From NCBI RefSeq assembly GCF_900111745.1, contig NZ_FOIJ01000004.1:372001-436000 (forward strand): a stretch of DNA of 64,000 nt, written 5' to 3'. The DNA comes from Stigmatella erecta (GTDB lineage: Bacteria; Myxococcota; Myxococcia; Myxococcales; Myxococcaceae). The notes beneath the pieces were generated by a model that was given only the letters and a program-made list of their open reading frames with translations, did not search any database and had not been told where the DNA came from. Position numbers and translations under genes: made by a program. Below, one piece after another: positions 52,099-64,000 of the stretch (positions within the stretch are counted from its first letter, which is position 1; each line of letters begins with the position of its first letter).

Positions 52099-54000
52099 CT
52101 ACACCCGGTAGCTGCGGGCCACGTGCTCCATCTGCTCGGCGACTTCCTGCAGGGTGCGCGCCGCGTTGCTGGTGGACTGAAGGCTCGTCACCGTCTCGTT
52201 CATCATCGTGGACAGGTCCGTCACCGCGCCGAAAATCTGGGAGATGCCCGCGTTCTGCTGGCTCACCGCGGCGGCGATCTGCCGCACGGCCGCGGCGTTG
52301 TCGTGGACGATGGTGGACAGCTCGCGGAGGTTCTCGCCGCTGGCGCGCACCTGCCCCAGCCCCTCCTCCATCCGCGTGTAGCCCTGCTCGGTCATCTTCG
52401 CCGTGGAGAGGATGGCCTGGCTGATGTCCCCCAGGATGTCCCGCACGCGCTCGGTGGCCTGGATGGACTGGTCCGCCAGCGAGCGGATTTCGCGCGCCAC
52501 CACGCCAAAGCCCTTGCCGTGCTCGCCGCTGCGCACCGCCTCGATGGCGGCGTTGAGCGCCAGCATGTTGGACTGGTCGGCCAGGTCCTTCACCGTCTGC
52601 GTAATCCCGCCGATCTGCTGGGTGCGCTCGTTGAGCCGGGCGATGCTCTGCGCCATCTGGGCCACCTGCTCCTGGAGGCCCTCGAAGCCTCCGAGGCTGC
52701 TGCTGATGGCGGCCTCGCCCGAGCGCCCCACGTCCTCGGCCCGGGCGGCCACGCTGATCACCGCGTCGGCCTTCTCGGCGGCGAGCAGGGAGGTCTGCTT
52801 GATTTCCTGCGCCGTCACCTGCGTCTCCTGGAGCGCGGCGGCCTGGCGCGCGATGTTGCGCTCCTGGTGGCGCGAGGCCTGGTTGAGCTCGCTCACCGTG
52901 TTGTTGAGCACCCGCATGCCGTTCTGGAGGCTGGCGGTGGTGTCCCGGAGGTGGCCCAGCATGAGCGCGAACGCGCCGGCCAGCTGCCCCACCTCGTCGT
53001 TGGAGGCCTGCACGGGCAGGGGCTGGCTCAGGTCCCGGTCATGGATGACGCGGCCCACCATGCCGCTGAGCGCCACCAGCGGCCGGGTGACGATGCGGGC
53101 CACGAGGAAGGTGCCCATGGCGGCCACCATCACGGCCAGCCCCGTCAGGGAGAGGTTCACCAGCAGCGTGCGGAACTCGTCCGCGTACGCCTCTTCCGGA
53201 TCCACCTGCGCCACGAAGCGCCAGCCGTCGCCCACGTCGCGAATCCGGCGATCATTCTCCATGACGACGGTCAGCGGCTGGGCGCCCGGGCGTGGCGGCG
53301 CGCCCCGCGCCTCGAAGAGGCTCGTGCCATCCGCGCGCCGCACCGACAGCGCGAAGCTCAGGTGGGAGCGCTGGCGGGCCCGCTCCAGCGTGGGGGCCAC
53401 CACCCGCGCCAAGTGCTCCCAGTCATACGCCGCCATCAGCACGCCCAGCGGCGGTGCGTCCGGGGCGCCCGCCACGGGGGCCGCCAGGGGCAGCACGCGC
53501 TTGCGGAAGATGGAGGAGGCCTGGGGGCTCAGCCCCTTGTCCGTCATCCGCCCCTCGTGGGCGGCGCGGAACCAGGGGCTCTCGGACACCTCGTCCTGCT
53601 GGTCCGAGTAGGCATGGAGCAAGCCCGGGGGGCTGGCGGCGATGGCCTGGCCCTCGGGGTTGAAGAGCACCAGGCCGCTGAAGGTGGACGCGTGGCGCAG
53701 CATGGCGGCCAGCTCCGGCGCGGCCACCGCGGGCGTGGGGCCCTGGAGCGCCGCGCGCAGGCTGGGGTCCTCCGCCCAGGTGCGCACGTTCGCCTCGCGC
53801 TCGGCGAGCATGGCCTCGACCAAGTCCCGCAGGCCCGAGGCCTCCAGGGAGAGCGTGTCCTGGACCTGGAGCCGCACCCGCTCCCGGGAGTCCATGAACT
53901 GGAGCCACCCCAGCGCCGCCAGCGGCACCACGTAGAGCAGGGTGGTGTACAGCGTCAGGCGCCCGCGGAGCTTGAGGGTGCCAAGGAGGGGCAGGGTCAT
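52099..54000 (-). CDS. methyl-accepting chemotaxis-type receptor
   Basis: A 633-residue protein. A first membrane helix LYTTLLYVVPLAALGWLQF (about 16-35) is followed by a large extracytoplasmic Cache-type sensor (about 40-265: SGLVLFNPEGQAIAASPPG, VAGAPDAPPLGVLMAAYDW). A second helix (LTGLAVMVAAMGTFLVARIV), a HAMP domain and the coiled-coil signalling region follow, with the hairpin tip VKDLADQSNMLALNAAIEAV then GFGVVAREIRSLADQSIQA. Soluble-ligand class. No che genes are adjacent; myxobacteria have many chemosensory arrays. Confidence 0.93.
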   Translation of the reverse strand: MTLPLLGTLKLRGRLTLYTTLLYVVPLAALGWLQFMDSRERVRLQVQDTLSLEASGLRDLVEAMLAEREANVRTWAEDPSLRAALQGPTPAVAAPELAAMLRHASTFSGLVLFNPEGQAIAASPPGLLHAYSDQQDEVSESPWFRAAHEGRMTDKGLSPQASSIFRKRVLPLAAPVAGAPDAPPLGVLMAAYDWEHLARVVAPTLERARQRSHLSFALSVRRADGTSLFEARGAPPRPGAQPLTVVMENDRRIRDVGDGWRFVAQVDPEEAYADEFRTLLVNLSLTGLAVMVAAMGTFLVARIVTRPLVALSGMVGRVIHDRDLSQPLPVQASNDEVGQLAGAFALMLGHLRDTTASLQNGMRVLNNTVSELNQASRHQERNIARQAAALQETQVTAQEIKQTSLLAAEKADAVISVAARAEDVGRSGEAAISSSLGGFEGLQEQVAQMAQSIARLNERTQQIGGITQTVKDLADQSNMLALNAAIEAVRSGEHGKGFGVVAREIRSLADQSIQATERVRDILGDISQAILSTAKMTEQGYTRMEEGLGQVRASGENLRELSTIVHDNAAAVRQIAAAVSQQNAGISQIFGAVTDLSTMMNETVTSLQSTSNAARTLQEVAEQMEHVARSYRV

Positions 54001-54118
54001 GTCGCTCTGGCCAGGAGGAGTACCAGCGACGGGCTGCTTCCCAGGCCGTGGGTCTGGGGGCAGCCCGTCCTGCCTGCGAGCGTATCAGAGCCGCAGGGGC
54101 TTCCAGAGCGTTCCATCC

Positions 54119-54553
54119 TTAAAGGATGGGCACACGGTTGGGCAGCTCACGGGCGGGCAGATTGGAATAGTCCGCATCCAGGTCCAGCACCAGCCGCTGG
54201 AGGACCCGCTTGCTCAGCGTCTTGCGCAGCAGGCCCAGGAAGCCCGGCGGGGCGGCGATGACCAGCCGCTCGAACATGTGGTGGTCCACGCCCCGGTCCA
54301 GGTGCGCGCACAGCTCGCGGGCGAAGCGCTCGTGCTCCAGGTTCTTGCGGCCGTTGGGCTCCGCCTCGGCCACGGGGCCGTGCAGGGTGCCCGCGTTGGG
54401 GTTGTCCTGCTGCTCCAGCAGGTCCGAGTTGCGCGCCCGGCTGTCGTCGTGGCGGAACTCCTCCAGCAGCTTCCAGTCATCCCCTTGCTCGTTCGCGGAG
54501 AACAGCCGCACCCGGCTCGCGTTGCCCACCAGAATCCAGAGCTTGTCGGACAT
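54119..54553 (-). CDS. host-attachment family protein (baeRF-like)
   Basis: A 144-residue protein from the ATG at 54553. KLWILVGNASRVRLFSANE, FARELCAHLDRG and FERLVIAAPPGFLGLLRKTL, then RELPNRVPIL at the end, match the family annotated as protein required for attachment to host cells. The fold is related to eRF1 domain 1 (baeRF). It is cytoplasmic by appearance, and the true function in a free-living bacterium is unknown. AGGAGGAT precedes the start. Confidence 0.85.
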   Translation of the reverse strand: MSDKLWILVGNASRVRLFSANEQGDDWKLLEEFRHDDSRARNSDLLEQQDNPNAGTLHGPVAEAEPNGRKNLEHERFARELCAHLDRGVDHHMFERLVIAAPPGFLGLLRKTLSKRVLQRLVLDLDADYSNLPARELPNRVPIL

Positions 54554-54716
54554 TCGTTGATCCTCCTTATGGATATAGAGAGGGATGCGGACGGGGGGCG
54601 CACCCGGCAAGCTTCCGGCCAGCCTCGGTGCCCCTGTTGGGCGCCAGGGGAGCAAGCACACAAGGGGGCTTTGCGTGTTCCCACGGCTGGCATATGCCCC
54701 CGGCCCGGGAGGCCTC

Positions 54717-55892
54717 ATGCGCGAGTTGGGAGAAGCGGCTGCCGGGTGGCTGGAGCACAGGACGGGGGAGATGGACGAGGCGCTCGGCGCGCTCGTGCGG
54801 GTGAACTCCTACACGGAGAACCCGGCCGGGGGCCGGACGCTGGCGGGCCTGCTGCGCGAGTGCTTCGCGGTGCCGGGGCTCTCCGCGGAGCTGGTGCTCA
54901 GCGCCCGCTTCGCCGACCACCTCGTGTTCCGCTCCGCGGGCCTGGCCGGCGTGCGGCCCGTGGCCCTGGTGGGACATTTGGACACCGTCTACCCCCCGGG
55001 CCGGTTCGAGGGCTACCGGAAGGAGGGGGCGCTGCGGCGGGGGCCCGGCGTGTTGGATCCGAAGGGCGGGCTCATCGTCATGGCCTGGGCGCTCCGGGCG
55101 CTGGCGGCCTCGGGGGGGCTGCAGGCGCTGCCGCCGCTGCGGCTGGTGGTGGTCTCGGACGAGGAGGTGGGCTCGCCGGAGGGCCAGGGCGTCATCCGCG
55201 AGGCGATTGGCGGGGCGCAGGCCTGCCTCGTCTTCGGGGCGGGGCGGCCGGGGGATGCCATCATCACCCAGCGCAAGGGCACGGGGACGCTCAAGGTGGT
55301 GGCCCACGGCCGGGCCGCCCACGCGGGCGACGCGTACGCCGAAGGGGCCAACGCGCTCTGGGCGCTCGCGCGCTTCGTGGACGGGGCCCAGCAGCTCACC
55401 GATGCGGCGCGCGGGCTCACCGTCAACGTGGGGCGGGTGGTGGGCGGGCAGGGGAAGAACACCGTGCCGGACCGCGCCGAGGCGGACGTGGACCTGCGCT
55501 TCTGCACCCGCGAGGACGGCGAGGCGCTGGTCGCGCGGCTCCAGCAGCTGGCCGCCCAGGCCTGCCAGGGGCTTCCGGGCACCCGGTTGGAGGTGGGGGG
55601 CGGGGTGGCGCGCGCGCCCCTGGAGCGCACCGGGGCCTCCGCGGCGCTGATGGCCGCCTACGGCCGGTGCGCCCAGGCCTCGGGGCTGGGCCAGGCGGAG
55701 TCACCCCGGGTGGGGGGCGGCTCGGATGCCAGCACCTCCTTTGGGCTGGGTATCCCGTCGATTGACGGACTGGGCCCCCGGGGCCAGGGCTCGCACACGG
55801 TGGAGGAGTCCATCAAGGTGGACTCGCTGCGCACCAAGGCCCAGGCGCTGGCGCGCTTCCTGGCCTCGGGACCGGCGCGCTCGCCCTTCTAA
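54717..55892 (+). CDS. M20 family metallopeptidase, carboxypeptidase G2-like
   Basis: A 391-residue protein. VALVGHLDTVYPPGRF gives the first zinc His-x-Asp; PGVLDPKGG the bridging Asp; VVSDEEVGSPEG the Glu-Glu pair. GRAAHAGDAYAEGANAL is the dimer domain and GGGSDASTSF the later zinc ligand region. DPKG instead of DMKG is a minor change. It hydrolyses N-acyl-amino acids, or gamma-glutamyl bonds in the CPG2 subgroup. It is cytoplasmic in form, with no signal peptide. GGGAGG precedes the start. Confidence 0.88.
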   Translation: MRELGEAAAGWLEHRTGEMDEALGALVRVNSYTENPAGGRTLAGLLRECFAVPGLSAELVLSARFADHLVFRSAGLAGVRPVALVGHLDTVYPPGRFEGYRKEGALRRGPGVLDPKGGLIVMAWALRALAASGGLQALPPLRLVVVSDEEVGSPEGQGVIREAIGGAQACLVFGAGRPGDAIITQRKGTGTLKVVAHGRAAHAGDAYAEGANALWALARFVDGAQQLTDAARGLTVNVGRVVGGQGKNTVPDRAEADVDLRFCTREDGEALVARLQQLAAQACQGLPGTRLEVGGGVARAPLERTGASAALMAAYGRCAQASGLGQAESPRVGGGSDASTSFGLGIPSIDGLGPRGQGSHTVEESIKVDSLRTKAQALARFLASGPARSPF

Positions 55893-55932
55893 TCCATTCC
55901 GTGTTGGGAGGCGGCGCGGTAAGAAGGGGGGT

Positions 55933-57153
55933 ATGCGTACTTCCGCCGTTGGCTTCGCCCTCTTGCTGATGCTGGCGCTGGCTTCCGCCGCCCAGGCCCA
56001 GGGTATGGGGCTGGATCTGTCCGGCTCCGAGCCCCCTCCCACCGATTCCGACAGCGAGGACACGGGAGATCCCGGCGCCGTCGGCATGGACCTCTCGGCC
56101 GACACGGCCGGCGCGGAGCTGCTGCCGCGCGCCGTCCTCCTGGGCCTGGACACCCCCGAGCGTGCCGGGGCCGCCGTCGCGGGCCGCTGGCTCCGCGGCC
56201 TGTATGGCGCTGTGCGCGGTGTGGGTGGGGTGGCGCTGGGCGCCTCCCTCAAGGACACCAAGGAGCGGCTGTCGGACGGCTACGAGACGGCGCTCAAGTG
56301 CACCTCGGCCTCGTGCCTGGCCGAGCCCTCGGAGACGCTGGATGCGAACCTGCTCGTCACCGCGCGGCTGGCGCTGGAGGACGACGGGTGGACGTTCCGG
56401 CTGTGGACGTATGACCACGACCGCGGCGTGGTGGAGACCGACTCGCTGACGGGCCGCAACCCGAAGGACGCGAAGTTCCAGCAGGGCGGCGCGCGGCTGC
56501 TGGCCGACCGGCTCAAGTCCCTGGCCAAGCCCCGCTCGGTGCTCAAGGTGAACGTCAACGTGTCCCAGGCGGTGGTGCGCCTGGGCGAGAAGACGCTGGG
56601 GGTGGGCAGCCTCGAGGCGCGCGTGCCGCCCGTGGAGTCCACGCTCACGGTCGAGGCGGAGGAGTACTCCACCTATACGAAGAAGCTGAACCTCAAGCCC
56701 GGGGAGACCTCCTCGGTGGACGTGTACCTGGAGTCCTCGGGCCCCGCGCCCGAGGGGCCGGGGGACGAGGTGGCCTCCTCGAAGCGCAAGAAGAGCGGCC
56801 CGTCGGGCCCCTCCCTCTTCAAGCGGCCCGCGCTCTACACCGCCGTGGCGGGACTGGTGGCGGTGGGCGTGGGCGCCTTCCTGGGCAGCGACGCCAAGAA
56901 GGTGGGCGACCGCGCCGTGGACGCCGACAACAACGGCGTCATCGATATCTCCCGCGGCGAGCGCATCGATGCGCAGAGCCAGGCGAACCTGGCCACGGCG
57001 CTGATGGTGGGTGGGGCCGCGGTCACGGCCGGCAGCGTGGTCTGGCTGGTGGTGGTCCCCACGAAGAGCGCGCCGCCCCCGGTGGCGCCCGGGACTGACA
57101 CCGCGCCGGCCTCCTCCACCGGCCTTCACGTCGTCTTCGGTGGGAGCTTCTGA
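55933..57153 (+). CDS. secreted/anchored PEGA-domain protein
   Basis: A 406-residue protein with a signal peptide (MRTSAVGFALLLMLALASAA). The mature N-terminus is acidic; a globular region (about 60-210) follows, then a PEGA-like domain (about 210-265: VVRLGEKTLGVGSLEARVPP). A membrane helix ALYTAVAGLVAVGVGAFLG and an EF-hand-like loop DADNNGVIDISRGE (about 335-348) come next, then a second helix. It probably has a structural or signalling role at the envelope. It heads a series with a MopE-like lipoprotein and kinase. The family is not recognised beyond PEGA. Confidence 0.68.
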   Translation: MRTSAVGFALLLMLALASAAQAQGMGLDLSGSEPPPTDSDSEDTGDPGAVGMDLSADTAGAELLPRAVLLGLDTPERAGAAVAGRWLRGLYGAVRGVGGVALGASLKDTKERLSDGYETALKCTSASCLAEPSETLDANLLVTARLALEDDGWTFRLWTYDHDRGVVETDSLTGRNPKDAKFQQGGARLLADRLKSLAKPRSVLKVNVNVSQAVVRLGEKTLGVGSLEARVPPVESTLTVEAEEYSTYTKKLNLKPGETSSVDVYLESSGPAPEGPGDEVASSKRKKSGPSGPSLFKRPALYTAVAGLVAVGVGAFLGSDAKKVGDRAVDADNNGVIDISRGERIDAQSQANLATALMVGGAAVTAGSVVWLVVVPTKSAPPPVAPGTDTAPASSTGLHVVFGGSF

Positions 57154-57155
57154 CC

Positions 57156-57416
57156 ATGAATTCCGTTTCCTTCCTGAAGCTGTCGCTGTGCGCCGCCCTC
57201 GTCGGCCTGTTCCCGGGATGCAGTGTCGATTTCCCGGACGACAAGCCCTATGCCTGCACCGCCGATGGGGACTGCGGCGGCGATGGCTACGTGTGCGCCA
57301 CGCTGGGCTCCCTGCAGTACTGCTGCCTTCCCGAGCCGGAGGTGTGCGGCAACGGCATCGACGACAACTGCGATGGCAAGGTGGACGAGAGCGGCCCGAA
57401 CGGTGAGGGCTGCTGA
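57156..57416 (+). CDS. MopE-like Cys-rich small lipoprotein
   Basis: An 86-residue protein with a lipoprotein signal (MNSVSFLKLSLCAALVGLFP, then GC). The body has CTADGDCGGDGYVCATLG and EVCGNGIDDNCDGKVDE, the metal-binding motif found in many copies in MopE proteins and in myxobacterial surface proteins. Here there is only one copy. It starts 2 bp after the PEGA gene stop, so is co-translated. It may be a calcium/copper-binding surface lipoprotein. Confidence 0.75.
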   Translation: MNSVSFLKLSLCAALVGLFPGCSVDFPDDKPYACTADGDCGGDGYVCATLGSLQYCCLPEPEVCGNGIDDNCDGKVDESGPNGEGC

Positions 57417-57698
57417 ACGGTTCCCGCGCGGGGCGTCACCGCGACCGTGGCCGAGGCAACACGAATCGTTGCTGCTCAATTGGACTGTACCCACGGCGCA
57501 GGAGGCCGGCGGCGGAAGCGGGGGCGGGTGATCCGCTCCCGCTGGCGGGGCCTCCAGGTAGTCCCAAGTGGGATTGCCTTGTGGAACAGGGAGAGTGTCC
57601 GGAGGTGGACGGCCTATCCACCCGGATTGCTCTTCGAGAGAACGCGAAGGGCGCCCATGGGTTGCTAGGGCTCCCTGCAATGGAAAGGTTTCTCTCCC

Positions 57699-59150
57699 AT
57701 GGCTGGTGAAGACCTCATCGCACAGACCGTGCTGTCCAGCATGTCCTCCGCCAACGGCACAGGCCGGAGCGGTAGTGAGATCCAGGAAGGAGATGTCCTG
57801 GGCAACTATCAGCTCGAACGGCTCCTGGGCGAAGGCTCCATGGGCCGGGTGTTCCAGGCGCGCCATGTGCGGCTGGGCCGGCAGGTGGCGCTCAAGGTGC
57901 TCCGCCCGGAGCACGCCCGGGACAGCGGCTTCGTCCGGCGCTTCTTCCAGGAGGCGCGCTCCGTCAACCAGATCAACCACGAGCACATCGTCGAGATCTT
58001 CGACTTCGTGGAAGAGCCGGAGAAGGGGCGCGTCTACTGCGTGATGGAGCTGCTGCGCGGGCAGAGCCTCGCCCAGGTGCTCAAGGAGGACCGGCTGACG
58101 CTCGAGCGCATCCAGCGCATCGGCGTGCAGGTGTGCGCGGCGCTCGGCGCGGCGCACGCGCTCGGCGTGGTGCACCGGGACGTCAAGCCCGACAACCTCT
58201 TCCTGGCCCACCGCAGCGGCATGGTGGACTTCGTCAAGGTGCTCGACTTCGGGGTGGCCAAGATTCTCACCTCCGAGGGCACCAACGGCACGCTGGACGG
58301 CACCATCATCGGCACGCCCACGTACATGGCGCCCGAGCAGGCCGCGGGGCTGCCGGTGGACCACCGCGCGGACATCTATGCCGTGGGCAACCTGCTCTAT
58401 GAGCTGCTCGCGGGGCGCCCGCCGTTCCAGGCGCCCGCCTTCGGGCAGCTCGTGGTGCAGATCATCACCCAGCCGCCGCCGGCCCTGCCGGACAAGCTGG
58501 CCTCCGGCGAGCCCATGCCGGCCGCGCTGGCGCAGCTGGTGCTGCGCTGCCTCGCCAAGGAACCCGAGGCCCGGCCCCAGCAGCTCTCCGAGGTGACGAC
58601 GGCGCTCTTGCTGCTGGGCGGCGTGAAGCGCTCGGACGTGGCGCTGGAGGATGACGAGGATTCCATCCCCACCCGCCGCATGAAGGCGGTGCAGACGTCC
58701 CTGTTCCAGGGCCGGACGCCGGTGCTCATCGGCGGCATGGCGCTGGCGATGCTGGCCGGCGGGCTCACCTGGCGGGGCGTGGAGCGGATGTGGCGCCCGG
58801 AGGCGGTGGTGGCGGAAGCGCCTGTTTCCGCGCCCGCGCCCGTGCTGGCCCCCGTCACCCTCGATGTGCGCACGGTGCCCGCGGGGGCCCGCGTGGTGCG
58901 CGCGGACACGGGGGAGGCGCTCGGGGTGACGCCCCTGGTGAAGCAGTTGCCGAGATCGAACGAGCCCCTCGGGCTGAGGGTGGAGCTGGCGGGTCACGTC
59001 TCCCAGGAGCGTGAAGTGCGCCTGGACGCCAACGCCTTCCTCGAGGTGCCCCTGGCGAAGGCCCCGGCGCCGGCCCCGGCCGCGCCGCCGAAGGCCGCGC
59101 CCCGCAAGGACATCAAGCGCGATGAACTCATCGATCCGTTCGCGATGTGA
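57699..59150 (+). CDS. Ser/Thr protein kinase (Hanks type) with C-terminal PEGA domain
   Basis: A 483-residue protein. The kinase domain spans residues about 38-305, with GEGSMGRV (44-51), the catalytic Lys66 in VALKVL, HRDVKPDN (Asp161) and DFG (Asp183), then GTPTYMAPEQ. A membrane helix lies at about 342-358, followed by a Pro/Ala linker and a PEGA-like domain at about 391-450. The kinase domain faces the cytoplasm and PEGA the outside, a common myxobacterial layout. The last 29 bp overlap the TPR gene. It probably signals through the adjacent TPR/FHA proteins. Confidence 0.92.
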   Translation: MAGEDLIAQTVLSSMSSANGTGRSGSEIQEGDVLGNYQLERLLGEGSMGRVFQARHVRLGRQVALKVLRPEHARDSGFVRRFFQEARSVNQINHEHIVEIFDFVEEPEKGRVYCVMELLRGQSLAQVLKEDRLTLERIQRIGVQVCAALGAAHALGVVHRDVKPDNLFLAHRSGMVDFVKVLDFGVAKILTSEGTNGTLDGTIIGTPTYMAPEQAAGLPVDHRADIYAVGNLLYELLAGRPPFQAPAFGQLVVQIITQPPPALPDKLASGEPMPAALAQLVLRCLAKEPEARPQQLSEVTTALLLLGGVKRSDVALEDDEDSIPTRRMKAVQTSLFQGRTPVLIGGMALAMLAGGLTWRGVERMWRPEAVVAEAPVSAPAPVLAPVTLDVRTVPAGARVVRADTGEALGVTPLVKQLPRSNEPLGLRVELAGHVSQEREVRLDANAFLEVPLAKAPAPAPAAPPKAAPRKDIKRDELIDPFAM

Positions 59151-59847
59151 GCGGCAGGGCCGGCTCCTCGGCCTCCTGCTGGTGCTGGGGCTGGTCCCGC
59201 TTTCCGCGAGCGCCGCGGCCCCCACGGAAGAGGCGAAGACGGCGGCCCGGGCGAAGTTCGCCGAGGGCAACGCCTTCTATGAGCAGGGGAACTTCCGCCA
59301 GGCCCTGTCCTCGTTCGACGCGGCCTACAGCCTGGTGCCCCTGCCGGCCTTCCTCTTCAACGTGGCCCAGTGCCACCGCCAGCTCGGCAGCTACGAGCGC
59401 GCGGCCACCTTCTACCGGCGCTACCTGGCGCTCTCGCCGAAGGAGCCGCCCAACGCGCCCATGGTGAAGGAGCTCATCACGGAGATGGACACCCGCGTGC
59501 AGGCGGAGGCCCAGAACCGCGCCGAGCGGGAGAAGACCGCCGCGAGGCCGAAGACGGATCGCCCCAAGGCCGTGGCGGCGCGGGAGCCGGCCGCGCGGGC
59601 CGCGCCGAAGCAGGAAGTCACGCTCAAGGAGGCCGAGCGCCAGGCCGTGGCCAACGCCACCAAGCCCGCGGTGACGCCGGCGCTGGGCAAGGGGAGGGCC
59701 GGGCAAGAAGTGCGTGAGCCGCTCACCCACAAGTGGTGGGTCTGGGCGGGGGCGGGGGCGGCCTTGCTGCTGACGGGCGGGGTCGTCTACGCGGTGACGG
59801 CGCCGGATCCCCGGCCCACGTCGCTGGGCACCGTCTCGTCCCGCTGA
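59122..59847 (+). CDS. TPR-repeat membrane protein, partner of the kinase
   Basis: A 241-residue protein from an ATG at 59122 inside the kinase gene (29-bp overlap, different frame). It has a signal/anchor (LLGLLLVLGLVPLSASA). EEAKTAARAKFAEGNAFYEQ GNFRQAL and AFLFNVAQCHRQLGSYERAA are TPRs at about 35-110. A Lys/Ala/Arg-rich middle and a C-terminal membrane helix WWVWAGAGAALLLTGGVVYA follow. It is translationally coupled to the kinase and may be its substrate or scaffold. No enzymatic domain. Confidence 0.78.
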   Translation: MNSSIRSRCERQGRLLGLLLVLGLVPLSASAAAPTEEAKTAARAKFAEGNAFYEQGNFRQALSSFDAAYSLVPLPAFLFNVAQCHRQLGSYERAATFYRRYLALSPKEPPNAPMVKELITEMDTRVQAEAQNRAEREKTAARPKTDRPKAVAAREPAARAAPKQEVTLKEAERQAVANATKPAVTPALGKGRAGQEVREPLTHKWWVWAGAGAALLLTGGVVYAVTAPDPRPTSLGTVSSR

Positions 59848-59850
59848 GCG

Positions 59851-60408
59851 CTACAGCCCCCGGGCCTGGCCCATCTGCTCGGTCAGGCGGGCGGCGATGC
59901 GGCCCAGGCGCGCGGAGAACTCCTCCGGCCCCTGGAAGGTGAGCCGCGCATCCCCCAGCTCCAGGTGCATCTCCGGCTTCAACGGGTGCGGCTGGCCAGC
60001 GGCCAGCGGCACCCCGTCGAGCTTCACCGAGCCCGCCTTGGGGTGCGCCTCCACGCGCCACTGTCCTTGCGCGTCCACGGCCAGGAGGATGTGCTCGCGC
60101 GACACGGTGGCGTCGTTGATGACGAACTCGTTGTGCGTGGCGCGGCCCACCCTCAGCACGGCCTGGGCCGAAGGGGGGGGCACCAGCTCGAAGCAGAGCG
60201 CGTCTCCCGGGGGCAGGCAGTCCCGGAGATCCGACACGGGGAGCCGGGTGGCCGCGACGTTCTGCATGTCCGTCTCCGGCACGTTCCAGGCGCCCGCCTC
60301 CCAGATCAGCCACGGGTGGGGATAGCGGGCCTGAAACCGGCCTTGAAGGGCCATGCGTTGACGGACGAGGAGCGAGAGCAGGAGAGAGCGCGCCATGGGA
60401 GAGGGCAT
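59851..60408 (-). CDS. FHA domain protein
   Basis: A 185-residue protein. LRVGRATHNEFVINDATVSREHILL is the FHA phosphothreonine-binding core (Arg, Ser-Arg-Glu-His), at about residues 88-112, with a final SVKLDGVPLAAGQPHPLKPE. The N-terminus is a hydrophobic/basic extension of about 60 residues. It probably reads Thr phosphorylation by the neighbouring kinases. It is convergent with the TPR gene (3 bp apart) and on the same strand as the ATP-grasp and membrane-kinase genes. The start could be 60408 or 60396. Confidence 0.85.
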   Translation of the reverse strand: MPSPMARSLLLSLLVRQRMALQGRFQARYPHPWLIWEAGAWNVPETDMQNVAATRLPVSDLRDCLPPGDALCFELVPPPSAQAVLRVGRATHNEFVINDATVSREHILLAVDAQGQWRVEAHPKAGSVKLDGVPLAAGQPHPLKPEMHLELGDARLTFQGPEEFSARLGRIAARLTEQMGQARGL

Positions 60409-60506
60409 TAAACACCGCGGGGGGCCCGGGCGCATGGCTCCTGTGATCCAGGTGTCCACGACTCAGCGGAATGCGGCGCCCAACGTCTACCGCCCCGCAC
60501 TTGGGG

Positions 60507-61373
60507 TTACAGCTTCCGGGCCACGGCCTGCGCCAGGCGGAGCGGAGCCTGGGCGTCGAGCCCGAGGAAGAGCCGGGGCTCCGTCGCTTCCAGCTCTTGC
60601 AGGCAAGCACGCCCCGCGTTGTCGGTGGCGATGTCCACCCGGGCGTACAGCAGCGGCGTCCCCACGGCGTCCAGGACGTCCTGGGCGAGCCGCAGCTCCT
60701 CCGGCCGCGGGTCGATCCGGTGGGGCTCCTCGAAGGCGCGCGGGGTGTTCTCCAGGCCGGGGGGCCGGCGCACCGCGTGGCTGAAGGCGCCATCGAAGAA
60801 GATGTAGGAGCGCTCCCCGTCCGTGCCAAAGGTGGAGAGGTAGGGCTGCACCATCACCTCGTCCTCGGCGGCGAGCGGGTCCAGGTGCGCCTGGGCCTGC
60901 GCCGCCTCCGCGGCCAAGAAGCGGTACGTCTTCAGCGCGCCGGCGGACACCACCGGCTTGAGCACCACCTGGCTCCACCCCCGCTCGCGCATCAGCGCGC
61001 CCACGTCCACCGAGCCCCCCCGGGGCACCCAGACGGTGGGGGTGAAGGGGATGCCCTGGGCCTCCAGCGTGCGCAGGTAGGACTTGTGCGTGTTCCAGCG
61101 CAGCACCTCGGGCGGGTTGTGGAGCTGGGTGCGCTCGCCCGTGCGGCGGGCCCAGTCCACGAAGGCCTCCCGCCGCAGGTGGGTGTCCCAGGCGGTGCGC
61201 ACCACCGCCACCCGGGGCACGCTCCAGTCGATCCGGGGATCATCCCAGACACAGGCGCGGGCCTTCAGCCCCAGCGCGGCCAGCGCGGGGATGAGCAGGG
61301 CGTCGTGGAGGTCGAGCTCCGGCAGGCCTGCATAGGTGACGATGGCGACGTCCATGTTCATGCGCGTGTCCAT
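60507..61373 (-). CDS. ATP-grasp enzyme, DcsG-like
   Basis: A 288-residue protein. DVAIVTYAGLPELDLHDALL at the start and WNTHKSYLRTLEAQGIPFTP then VVLKPVVSAGALKTYRF match the ATP-grasp family that includes the D-cycloserine ligase DcsG. Late residues DIATDNAGRACLQELEATEP hold the metal Glu. It would join a carboxylate and an amine using ATP. The product is unknown; no other antibiotic genes are near. Start Met 1, 5 or 7 all fit. Confidence 0.82.
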   Translation of the reverse strand: MDTRMNMDVAIVTYAGLPELDLHDALLIPALAALGLKARACVWDDPRIDWSVPRVAVVRTAWDTHLRREAFVDWARRTGERTQLHNPPEVLRWNTHKSYLRTLEAQGIPFTPTVWVPRGGSVDVGALMRERGWSQVVLKPVVSAGALKTYRFLAAEAAQAQAHLDPLAAEDEVMVQPYLSTFGTDGERSYIFFDGAFSHAVRRPPGLENTPRAFEEPHRIDPRPEELRLAQDVLDAVGTPLLYARVDIATDNAGRACLQELEATEPRLFLGLDAQAPLRLAQAVARKL

Positions 61374-61383
61374 GGGGGCCGGG

Positions 61384-62997
61384 CTACCCGGAGTGCGCCT
61401 GGAGCCGCCGGTCGATCTCGGTGGCCGGTTGGGCGGGGGAGAGCGCCTCGCTGCCCCGGTGCAGCTGGAGCAGGGCCTCCTGCATGGCCAGCGACAGCGC
61501 CGCCTGGCCGTGGGGATAGGGGGCCTCTTCTCCCGTGAGCTGGAGCAGCTGCTGGCGCAGCTCCCCGCTGTGGGGGGTGCGCCGGCCCAGGTTGCGCTCC
61601 AGCAGCCGCATCACCACCGCGTCCAGCGCGGGAGAAACCCCGGGCCGGAAGTGGGAGGGCGGCTTCAGCTCCTGCTCCATGACGGCGAACATCAGCGCGG
61701 CCTCGCCCTCGCCCACGAGCAGGCGCTGGCCGGTGATGGCCTCGTGGAGGGTGAGCCCCAGGGCGAACAGGTCCGAGCGCCCATCCATCGGCTCGGCCCG
61801 CACCTGCTCCGGGGCCATGTAGCCCAGCTTGCCCCGCACGGTGCCCACCACGGTGAGCTGCGCGCGCGCGGCATCCCGGGCGATGCCGAAGTCCGACAGC
61901 TTCACCTCGCCCAGGCGCGAGAGCAGCACGTTGGGCGGGTTCAGGTCCCGGTGCACGAGGTGCAGCGGCTCGCCGGTGCGGCTGGTGCGCCGGTGCAGGT
62001 AGTCCAGCGCCGAGGCCAGCTCCGCCCCGAGGAAGGTGACCGCGGACAGGGGCAGCCGGCGCCCACCCATCACCCGCAGCAGCGTGCTCAGGGGCAGGCC
62101 ATCCACGTACTCCATGGCCAGGAAGTACGTGTTGGCATGCCGCCCCAGGTCGAACACCTGGACGATGTTGGGGTGGTGCAGGGTGGAGCACAGCTCCGCC
62201 TCCCGGCGGAAGAGGGTGACGAAGCCCGCGTCATCCGCGAAATGGGGGAGGATGCGCTTGAGGGCCACCTGCTTCTCGAAGCCGCCCTCGGGGCAGTAGG
62301 TGGCGCGGTACACCTCCGCCATGCCGCCGGTGCCGATGCGCTCGTGCAGCAGGTACTTGCCCATGACTTCCTGCTCGCGCAGGGCCGCGAGCGCCTGGCC
62401 CGTCTTGCGCACGAAGTGCCGGGCGAGGATGGCGGTGGCCACCCCGGAGCTGAGCAGGAACACCGCGCGCATGATGATGAAGGGCGGGGTGAGGGTGAGC
62501 AGCGGCTCCTCGGGGAGCAGCGGGCGCACGAAGAAGAAGTAGAGCAGCAGGTACTCACCGGCCGCGAGCCCGCCGGCCATCAGCGCCAGCATGGGCTGGG
62601 TGCGCAGCGCCGCCAGCACCACCAGCGTGCCCCAGATGACGAGCGTGGGGGCGGTGAGCGCGTAGATGGGCCCCTGGAAGCGCAAGTCGAAGGCCAGCAC
62701 CACCGAGGGGATGCTGACCTCGATGGCCACGTTGAGCCAGTGGATGACGGGGTGAAACCACCCCGCGCCCAGGGCGCGCCACAGCACCGTGTAATAGAGG
62801 CACAGCAGGGCCACGAGCCCCAGCAGCGCGCGCGTCAGCCCCCAGCCGATGTAGGGCCCCAGGGCCCCCACCGCCACGAGGCAGGCCGCGGCCAGTCCCG
62901 CCATGTAGCCCGCCACGGACGTCTCCCGGGCTTGGGAATCCCGGCGAAGGTGGCTCTTGAGGAAACGGGAGACCGCGGTGGGGTGCGTCGTCGTCAT
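61384..62997 (-). CDS. membrane Ser/Thr kinase with N-terminal multi-helix domain
   Basis: A 537-residue protein with the reverse of the usual layout. Residues 30-200 are six or so membrane helices (AGYMAGLAAACLVAVGALGP, ALLGLVALLCLYYTVLW, IIMRAVFLLSSGVATAILA). The kinase begins at about residue 218: IGTGGMAEVYRA (P-loop), VALKRIL, HRDLNPPNVLL and LSDFGIARD, then YMAPEQ. In the catalytic loop the usual Lys (HRDLK) is Asn. This HRD-x-N/S variant is frequent in myxobacterial kinases and may remain active. It is 10 bp before the ATP-grasp gene's end. It may sense membrane state. Confidence 0.9.
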   Translation of the reverse strand: MTTTHPTAVSRFLKSHLRRDSQARETSVAGYMAGLAAACLVAVGALGPYIGWGLTRALLGLVALLCLYYTVLWRALGAGWFHPVIHWLNVAIEVSIPSVVLAFDLRFQGPIYALTAPTLVIWGTLVVLAALRTQPMLALMAGGLAAGEYLLLYFFFVRPLLPEEPLLTLTPPFIIMRAVFLLSSGVATAILARHFVRKTGQALAALREQEVMGKYLLHERIGTGGMAEVYRATYCPEGGFEKQVALKRILPHFADDAGFVTLFRREAELCSTLHHPNIVQVFDLGRHANTYFLAMEYVDGLPLSTLLRVMGGRRLPLSAVTFLGAELASALDYLHRRTSRTGEPLHLVHRDLNPPNVLLSRLGEVKLSDFGIARDAARAQLTVVGTVRGKLGYMAPEQVRAEPMDGRSDLFALGLTLHEAITGQRLLVGEGEAALMFAVMEQELKPPSHFRPGVSPALDAVVMRLLERNLGRRTPHSGELRQQLLQLTGEEAPYPHGQAALSLAMQEALLQLHRGSEALSPAQPATEIDRRLQAHSG

Positions 62998-63223
62998 GCC
63001 GGCAGCACCATAGTGCTTTTGCGGCGCGGAGAGGGGGAACAGGCAAGCATGCGAGCTTCCCCCCTGCTCCGGAGGCTTTGTTCGTCATTCCCGCGGGGCC
63101 GAGGCGCTCCAGGCGGGGCGTTTCCTGGCTGCTTCCTTCCGGACTGGGCAGCCGAAGGGCGGGGGCCGCCCCGGGGGGCCTTCGTGCGTAGCGTCTTCTC
63201 AACGGCTTTCGCGGGAGAAACGC

Positions 63224-64000
63224 ATGGCGCACAAGGTGAAGGGTCCCAAGGTCCGGTACGGGGTGGTGGGCGGTGGCTCCATCTCGCAGATGGCGTTCAT
63301 GCCGGGGGTGGGCCAGACGCGCAATTCGCAGCTGACGGCGCTCGTGACGGGGGACCCTGTCAAGGCGGACAAGCTGGCCAAGCTGTACGGGCTGAAGAGC
63401 TACCACTATGACGACTACGCGCGCCTCCTGTCCTCGGGCGAAGTCGATGCCGTCTACGTGGCCACCCCCAACTTCAACCACACGCCCTATGTGGTGTCAG
63501 CGCTCAAGGCGGGCGTCCATGTGCTGCTGGAGAAGCCCATGGCGGCGAGCGAGGAGGACTGCTGGGCGATGCGGTCGGCGGCCAAGGAGTCGGGCGCCAA
63601 GCTGATGATCGCCTACCGGCTGCACTTCGAGCCGGGCACGGTGGAGCTCATCGAGCGCGTGAGGGCAGGGCACTTCGGCCGTATCCACGCCTTCTCCTCG
63701 GTGTTCAGCCAGATCGTGAAGCAGTCCAACCACCGGGCGAAGAGCGGCTACTGGGCCGGGCCCGTTCCGGACATGGGCCCCTATCCCATCAACGCCGCGC
63801 GCAACCTGTTCGGCACCGAGCCCATCGAGGTCCGCGCCACGGGCTTCCGCACCCCCGGCCGCAGCCTGAACTTCGATGACGTGGTGTCCGTGGTGCTGCG
63901 GTTTCCCGAGGACCGGATGGCGCAGTTCGTCGTCGACTACAGCGGCAGCACGGTGAACCGGTACGAGCTGATCGGGGACAAGGGGACCGTGGAGGCCTCG
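63224..64000 (+). CDS. Gfo/Idh/MocA family oxidoreductase (3' end outside window)
   Basis: Partial, 259 codons, running off the right edge. KVRYGVVGGGSISQMAFMPG is the NAD(P)-binding start; VDAVYVATPNFNHTPYVVSAL and LLEKPMAASEEDCWAM (EKP motif) follow. MIAYRLHFEPGTVELIERV is typical of the glucose-fructose-oxidoreductase-like branch, and GYWAGPVPDMGPYPINAARN carries the usual Asp-Met-Gly and the likely active-site residues. It oxidises or reduces a sugar or sugar derivative. GGGAGAAA precedes the ATG. It is divergent from the membrane kinase. Confidence 0.9.
   Translation, partial: MAHKVKGPKVRYGVVGGGSISQMAFMPGVGQTRNSQLTALVTGDPVKADKLAKLYGLKSYHYDDYARLLSSGEVDAVYVATPNFNHTPYVVSALKAGVHVLLEKPMAASEEDCWAMRSAAKESGAKLMIAYRLHFEPGTVELIERVRAGHFGRIHAFSSVFSQIVKQSNHRAKSGYWAGPVPDMGPYPINAARNLFGTEPIEVRATGFRTPGRSLNFDDVVSVVLRFPEDRMAQFVVDYSGSTVNRYELIGDKGTVEAS

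Follow-up and report, generated by a model that had tools for sequence, protein, structure and literature searches.

What a receptor-type Ser/Thr kinase of a myxobacterium responds to, and through which partners, is the question raised by a cluster of signalling genes at positions 55933-62997 of a 64,000-nucleotide stretch of the Stigmatella erecta genome (contig NZ_FOIJ01000004.1, positions 372,001 to 436,000; this whole stretch is called the window). To our knowledge, most myxococcal Ser/Thr kinases have no known input. The Myxococcaceae possess around 100 Ser/Thr kinases per genome according to a survey of kinase numbers (PMC7694542), and its main text mentions neither PEGA, FHA nor TPR. 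In the cluster we found all seven open reading frames, arranged in two convergent sets, four on the plus strand and three on the minus strand, rather than in one operon. The original prediction had taken these adjoining genes, each of which proved to be present, for one compact phospho-relay that may sense the envelope and steer a ligase. The results showed a smaller core, in which the genes of a PEGA-type Hanks kinase (57699-59150, plus strand) and a TPR protein (59122-59847, plus strand) face an FHA gene (59851-60396, minus strand), and a short C-terminal tail of the kinase that accompanies the TPR gene across genomes. We lean towards reading the core as a module that would sense the envelope by docking of this tail in the TPR protein.

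The kinase tail accompanies the TPR gene

The kinase at 57699-59150 matched Pkinase with 173 bits (E 8e-51; cut-off 31.7), and K66, H159-R160-D161, D183-F184-G185 and P212-E213 were invariant in 19 aligned orthologues, so that by domain and catalytic residues it is a Hanks-type Ser/Thr kinase. It also contains a hydrophobic segment, and its C-terminal region is PEGA-like; the PEGA match of 15.1 bits is below the cut-off, and the region nevertheless aligns with the orthologues. After a variable linker, the alignment closes with a conserved RDxxIDPFA, which in the window reads RDELIDPFAM (59118-59147, plus strand) and which, from this alignment and the tail surveys, is proposed as a docking peptide. 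No description of this tail was found in the open-licence literature searched. The ATG of the following TPR gene (TPR_16, E 4e-13) sits within the kinase gene, and the two overlap by 29 bases, as had been noticed originally.

A tail was scored as [DN]P[FYW] within the last 12 residues. The consensus of 40 distinct tail cores was [RTPD]-[DE]-[GAD]-[TVL]-[ILV]-[DN]-P-[FY], and the tail is written as D-x-[TVL]-[ILV]-[DN]-P-[FY]. Genes were defined by codon-score calls or as stop-to-stop frames. In all sets other than that of the own genome, kinases cut off by the end of a stretch were left out and repeats were removed by tail. TPR neighbours were detected by a profile of the window TPR family, other TPR types being mostly not counted.

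Among 52 orthologue loci, the tail was found in 37 of the 38 with the TPR gene and in none of the 14 without it; the conserved kinase end is absent from those orthologues of g9, g17 and g23 that also have no TPR gene. All 11 genomes of g26 are without a PEGA-protein match and keep both TPR gene and tail, and 11 of the 12 genomes of g23 retain PEGA-protein and FHA matches without TPR gene and tail, showing that the tail tracks the TPR gene and not the other neighbours.

The 9.2 Mb S. erecta genome contains at least 153 Pkinase matches, and our survey of it covered the higher-ranked ones (about 100), with 89 kinases recognised by phmmer in 80 stretches and the window. The tail was present on two of these 89 kinases, exactly the two that are followed by a TPR protein of the window family. 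Eight further PEGA-matching kinases have neither a tail nor a TPR gene of this family in their stretch, and the motif was found in the last 12 residues of none of 600 non-kinase genes.

Loci of other genera provided 76 kinases, a set that overlaps the 52 orthologues. Tail and TPR gene occurred together in 33 of them and 34 had neither, six had the tail with no TPR gene found in reach, and three, two of which sit behind another kinase, had a TPR gene in reach and no tail. When we turned to 80 TPR loci of named genomes (the best 80 of 151 relatives), a kinase was found to end just upstream in 53, and 45 of these 53 kinases bear the tail; several records, such as L191, L193 and L245, are shared with the 76-genome set used below for linkage, and the sets are not independent. 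The stricter tail pattern matched 58 of 4,320 closed open reading frames in these TPR loci, namely 56 kinases and two 3' fragments of kinases at contig ends. Three further genomes, surveyed in their 30 best-scoring loci, gave 26 best-scoring kinases, of which 21 had neither tail nor TPR gene, one had a weak TPR match without a tail and four were tailed; two of these four adjoin a TPR gene and two (L297, L303) lie one gene upstream of such a kinase.

At L211, L214, L216, L226, L229 and L251, two tailed kinases were seen upstream of a single TPR gene.

The TPR protein and its putative groove

The TPR protein (59122-59847) is composed of a signal-like N-terminus, two TPRs and a C-terminal hydrophobic helix. 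In 41 TPR proteins (40 of 76 closed TPR open reading frames, and that of the window), P75, L78, F79, N80, Q83 and W208 were invariant and R86 was kept in at least 90%. All of these residues other than W208 fall in the helix 75-87 (59344-59382, plus strand), and the predicted local distance difference test (pLDDT) score of the model was >90 over blocks 31-140. In the Pfam register, F79, N80, Q83 and R86 occupy repeat positions 5, 6, 9 and 12, which we take to be ligand-facing, with position 6 as the Asn of the carboxylate clamp. From conservation and model, we propose that this helix lines a groove.

Foldseek searches with the TPR model gave nine matches at E ≤0.001, all of them designed or consensus TPRs. 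The weaker matches included, at E 1e-3 to 5e-3, 3kd7 (CTPR390 with an Hsp90 peptide), 4cgu (Tah1 with an Hsp90 peptide) and 5l0y (Sec72 with an Ssa1 peptide). In fold and conserved groove residues, the modelled protein is of the kind that binds C-terminal peptides; peptide binding is predicted for it, with the facing of the groove residues presumed as above.

Its signal-like N-terminus, its C-terminal hydrophobic helix and a receptor fusion at a second S. erecta locus suggest that the TPR protein is exported. At that locus (L104; contig C22, 2081-7468), a PEGA kinase ending GYKDDPYQ is followed after 11 bases by a gene for an 841-residue fusion of a TPR region with a TonB-dependent receptor, and a periplasmic-binding-protein gene lies on the opposite strand. 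The arrangement of L104 would be compatible with a kinase-linked uptake receptor, which we regard as possible.

Conserved linkage with a convergent FHA gene

The FHA protein is encoded on the minus strand, convergent to the kinase-TPR pair, at 59851-60396 with an ATG start or up to 60459 with a GTG start. It matched PF00498 with 34.4 bits (E 3e-8; cut-off 20.7), and G84, R85, S99 and R100 were invariant in 21 sequences. In domain and residues it is a phosphothreonine reader, whose reading activity is predicted. Searching its sequence against the PDB gave no match. A conserved W-L-x-W-E stretch ahead of the FHA domain was seen in this family (G054, G036, G050), which has up to seven matches per genome (G054).

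The presence of two kinase genes 4 kb apart in the cluster is at chance level, and unusual kinase clustering was rejected: among 150 listed kinase matches of the genome, 10 neighbouring pairs within 4 kb were observed and 9.3 were expected, with a simulated 2.5-97.5% range of 4-15 in which contig breaks were not modelled. Since the proximity of the kinases is unremarkable, we examined the persistence of individual neighbours across genomes instead, using profile matches in 76 genomes of the family and gene maps for 54 loci.

In 51 of the 76 genomes, kinase and FHA matches were no more than 12 kb apart on the same contig, and the two genes were convergent in all 51. In these linked genomes, the PEGA-protein gene lay no more than 2.2 kb from the kinase in 32, an ATP-grasp gene no more than 5 kb from the FHA gene in 32, and a membrane-kinase gene within 7 kb in 26. 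The pair facing the FHA gene recurs in g5, g13 and g16 amid different flanks. The kinase, TPR and FHA genes stay linked more than chance would give. All six larger genes of the cluster were together in only eight of the 76 genomes, the window and seven others, and the presence of the ATP-grasp and membrane-kinase genes varies, so we rejected a single conserved seven-gene unit. These results indicate that the steady core consists of the PEGA-kinase and TPR genes facing the FHA gene, and that the ATP-grasp and membrane-kinase genes adjoin it without belonging to it. Of the envelope-sensing kinase cluster with an FHA reader that had been predicted, the PEGA and TPR parts beside the kinase and the adjoining FHA gene were thus upheld, and the single compact relay of seven genes was not.

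Proposed mechanism

Judging from its hydrophobic segment, the kinase would expose its kinase domain to the cytoplasm and its PEGA-like region and C-terminal tail to the periplasm; in other systems PEGA is described as peptidoglycan-associating (PMC7159879). The TPR protein would be exported and held by its C-terminal helix, and the tail may dock, in the periplasm, in the groove of the second TPR repeat. This contact, shaped by the state of the envelope, could set the dimerisation or activity of the kinase, which would phosphorylate cytoplasmic proteins, and the FHA protein, as expected of its family, may read phosphothreonine on the kinase or on a substrate. For the core as a whole, that is, an envelope-sensing module of PEGA-type kinase, TPR partner and convergent FHA protein with the tail docked in the TPR protein, our belief is somewhat stronger than our doubt. 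That the FHA protein reads the PEGA-kinase of the window itself is a candidate we find rather more doubtful than convincing.

We also put forward, tentatively and with our doubt slightly ahead, a docking code common to the Myxococcota. In such a code, the C-terminal periplasmic tails of receptor-type Ser/Thr kinases would plug into exported TPR adaptors, which could be tethered to the inner membrane or form part of an outer-membrane TonB-dependent receptor. One adaptor could serve tandem kinases, and events at the outer membrane could be relayed to a kinase in the cytoplasm and to its FHA reader. With a short tail as predictor of the partner gene, kinase inputs could be assigned from sequence, and the receptor fusion of L104, if general, would connect the outer membrane with eukaryote-type kinases.

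Exceptions and alternative explanations

Several observations count against the docking of the tail in the TPR protein or against a direct role of the FHA protein. The motif is missing from eight of the 53 TPR-adjacent kinases, seven of which have variants or a tail further in and one of which (L248) has nothing similar: DPF lies 16 residues before the end in L219, the kinases of L225, L239 and L256 end in SPF, IDAF and LDAY, respectively, and those of L252, L253 and L267 end in VKF or VEF. The orthologue L080 has the TPR gene and a kinase ending DGVMEAY, the weak TPR match of L313 is not accompanied by a tail, and in 27 of the 80 TPR loci no kinase ends just upstream. Two of the six tailed kinases with no TPR gene found in reach were explained, the gene lying upstream past a large gene in L045 and a TPR match missed by the gene caller being present in L046; the kinases of L171-L173 and L181, which end in HPDPFKL or DDGTIDPFGG, are tailed and no TPR gene was detected in their vicinity. 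At L140 in S. erecta (contig C17, 7070-8958), the gene of an exported TPR protein of another type overlaps the start of that for a tail-less, soluble kinase of 311 residues, which slightly reduced our confidence in the docking core, and the non-kinase product of L142 at 1354 has NPF just beyond the 12-residue limit. The 14 TPR-less orthologues correspond to three changes on the best tree, a quick build with no bootstrap, and one of the three is forced by well-supported branches. The groove assignment depends on the Pfam register and on taking those repeat positions to be ligand-facing. As for the FHA gene, convergent genes are not co-transcribed, so its linkage need not imply a direct link; the upstream M20 peptidase, MCP and HAD genes are also conserved in order and show part of the synteny in the closer genera to be general.

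The tail might be a by-product of gene overlap, conserved together with the TPR start and lost when the TPR gene is deleted. Overlaps are indeed frequent, measuring about 20-35 bases in many orthologues besides the window, and in many orthologues the ATG of the TPR gene falls within the Asp codon of the tail plus the next G. However, 19 of the 55 tailed kinases in the named-genome set, which counts tandem kinases, have genes that cannot contain a TPR start, and overlap as the sole cause was therefore rejected. The tail is also kept where the genes are separated, as in L104 with its gap, in L090, whose TPR gene lies at a distance of 1,450 bases, and in L045, whose TPR gene is upstream; and across the overlaps of 37 orthologues most of the variation in the D, P and F codons is synonymous while the TPR frame reads LIRS, SIRS, STRS and others, which makes a by-product quite unlikely. 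A somewhat better case, although still an unlikely one, can be made for a tail that has a different binding partner, for instance another envelope protein, a sorting factor or a protease, and is no more than the hallmark of a kinase clade in which a TPR gene is the usual neighbour. The tailed kinases of L171-L173 and L181 would fit it, most tailed kinases could descend from one ancestor, and the losses among orthologues amount to one to three events; but the tail vanishes with the TPR gene while the PEGA-type region, the PEGA protein and the FHA gene persist, and the diverged L104 kinase, with its TPR-receptor fusion, also bears a DPY tail.

The other two alternatives concern the gene neighbourhood. 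Ordinary synteny, in which unrelated genes stay side by side by descent without a joint function, would account for the conserved order of the M20 peptidase, MCP and HAD genes, but the kinase-TPR-FHA layout persists in g5, g13 and g16 without those flanks and the tail tracks the TPR gene, so that we consider it very unlikely. Least probable of all seems a single phospho-relay in which the two kinases, the FHA protein and the ATP-grasp enzyme would together control a ligase. All of these genes are together in the eight genomes mentioned above, and in the window only 10 bases separate the membrane-kinase and ATP-grasp genes; yet the two are lost or moved separately, with the membrane kinase present and the ATP-grasp match absent in G058 and the reverse in seven of the 12 genomes of g23, and other genes separate the membrane kinase from ATP-grasp in G046 and G063, and ATP-grasp from FHA in g23. 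The ligase-steering part of the original prediction found no support. Compared with these alternatives, docking of the tail in the TPR protein remains the reading that we prefer.

Neighbouring genes

The first gene of the cluster (55933-57153, plus strand) encodes a PEGA-domain protein of 406 residues (PF08308, 25.8 bits; cut-off 20.8) whose N-terminus looks signal-like and whose C-terminal part holds two hydrophobic segments, both as judged by eye. It is followed at 57156-57416 (plus strand) by the gene of a small MopE-like lipoprotein of 86 residues, whose match to PF11617, the MopE-type metal-binding motif, reached 25.7 bits, just below the cut-off of 27; a gap of 282 bases separates this gene from the kinase gene. 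The lipoprotein has 86 residues in the window and its close kin, and 218-615 residues at the same site in other genera, where the long homologues are rich in DxDGDG-like repeats, with many such motifs seen by eye. We rejected the short gene as a fresh pseudogene, the short form being intact in G015, G030 and G038. In G046 the MopE-like gene is duplicated along with the PEGA gene.

On the minus strand beyond the FHA gene, an ATP-grasp-like protein is encoded at 60507-61373. It gave no Pfam match at E 1 and resembles the small-molecule enzyme DcsG (NCBIfam NF058666, E 5e-56) at a score far below the family cut-off, and a part for it in a ligase-steering relay was not supported. Relatives of this gene at L037, L038, L041 and L043 (g8, g12) lie near apparent pyridoxal-phosphate aminotransferase and Lrp/AsnC regulator genes, as judged by eye. 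The membrane kinase (61384-62997, minus strand; Pkinase E 7e-37, 127.6 bits) has its kinase domain at residues 217-474, behind a hydrophobic N-terminal half, which agrees with the inverted layout predicted earlier. Asn353 replaces the Lys of its catalytic loop (HRDxN for HRDxK) in 12 of 12 orthologues. The g8 and g12 genomes have three to five kinases with an N-terminal region resembling that of this membrane kinase.

A Gfo/Idh/MocA oxidoreductase is encoded at 63224-64000, likewise in G015, and its place is taken in many relatives by a large surface-type protein (a cluster of 18). The closest named relatives of the window proteins were from Hyalangium, Archangium and Corallococcus, among the best 80 of 151 relatives. 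An Rfam scan of 53000-64000 at gathering scores found no RNA element, and scans for consensus promoters and terminators gave no excess over shuffled sequence.

Comparison with known systems

PknF-Rv1747 and PknB-FhaB are known mycobacterial pairs of a kinase and an FHA protein, and Hop is a known protein whose TPR domain binds C-terminal peptides. In M. tuberculosis, FHA genes cluster with those of Ser/Thr kinases (PMC1262709), and PknH-EmbR is a further mycobacterial kinase with a linked FHA protein (PMC2877116). The core in the window resembles these receptor-type Hanks kinases in having a kinase beside an FHA protein, but differs from them in its convergent FHA gene, its PEGA-like outer part and its TPR partner with a matching kinase tail.

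Like the PASTA kinases (PknB/Stk1), the window kinase would combine a cytoplasmic kinase domain, one hydrophobic segment and envelope-facing repeats, and this family was the best NCBIfam match (NF033483, 262 bits). However, scores of 262 and 231 bits are far under its cut-off of 450, and Pfam gave no PASTA match, which places the window kinase outside the family. The ATP-grasp protein aligns over its full length with DcsG, the D-cycloserine synthetase (6jil, E 9e-29), but its 190 bits against NF058666 compare with a cut-off of 360, which puts it outside that family, and no cycloserine genes were seen beside it. The TPR protein shares its fold with Tah1, Sec72 and the designed CTPR390, which bind C-terminal peptides, whereas it is predicted to be exported and has only two repeats and a helix. 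In those systems EEVD stands at the very end of the ligand, while the ligand proposed in the window is D-P-F/Y, which can be followed by as many as six residues.

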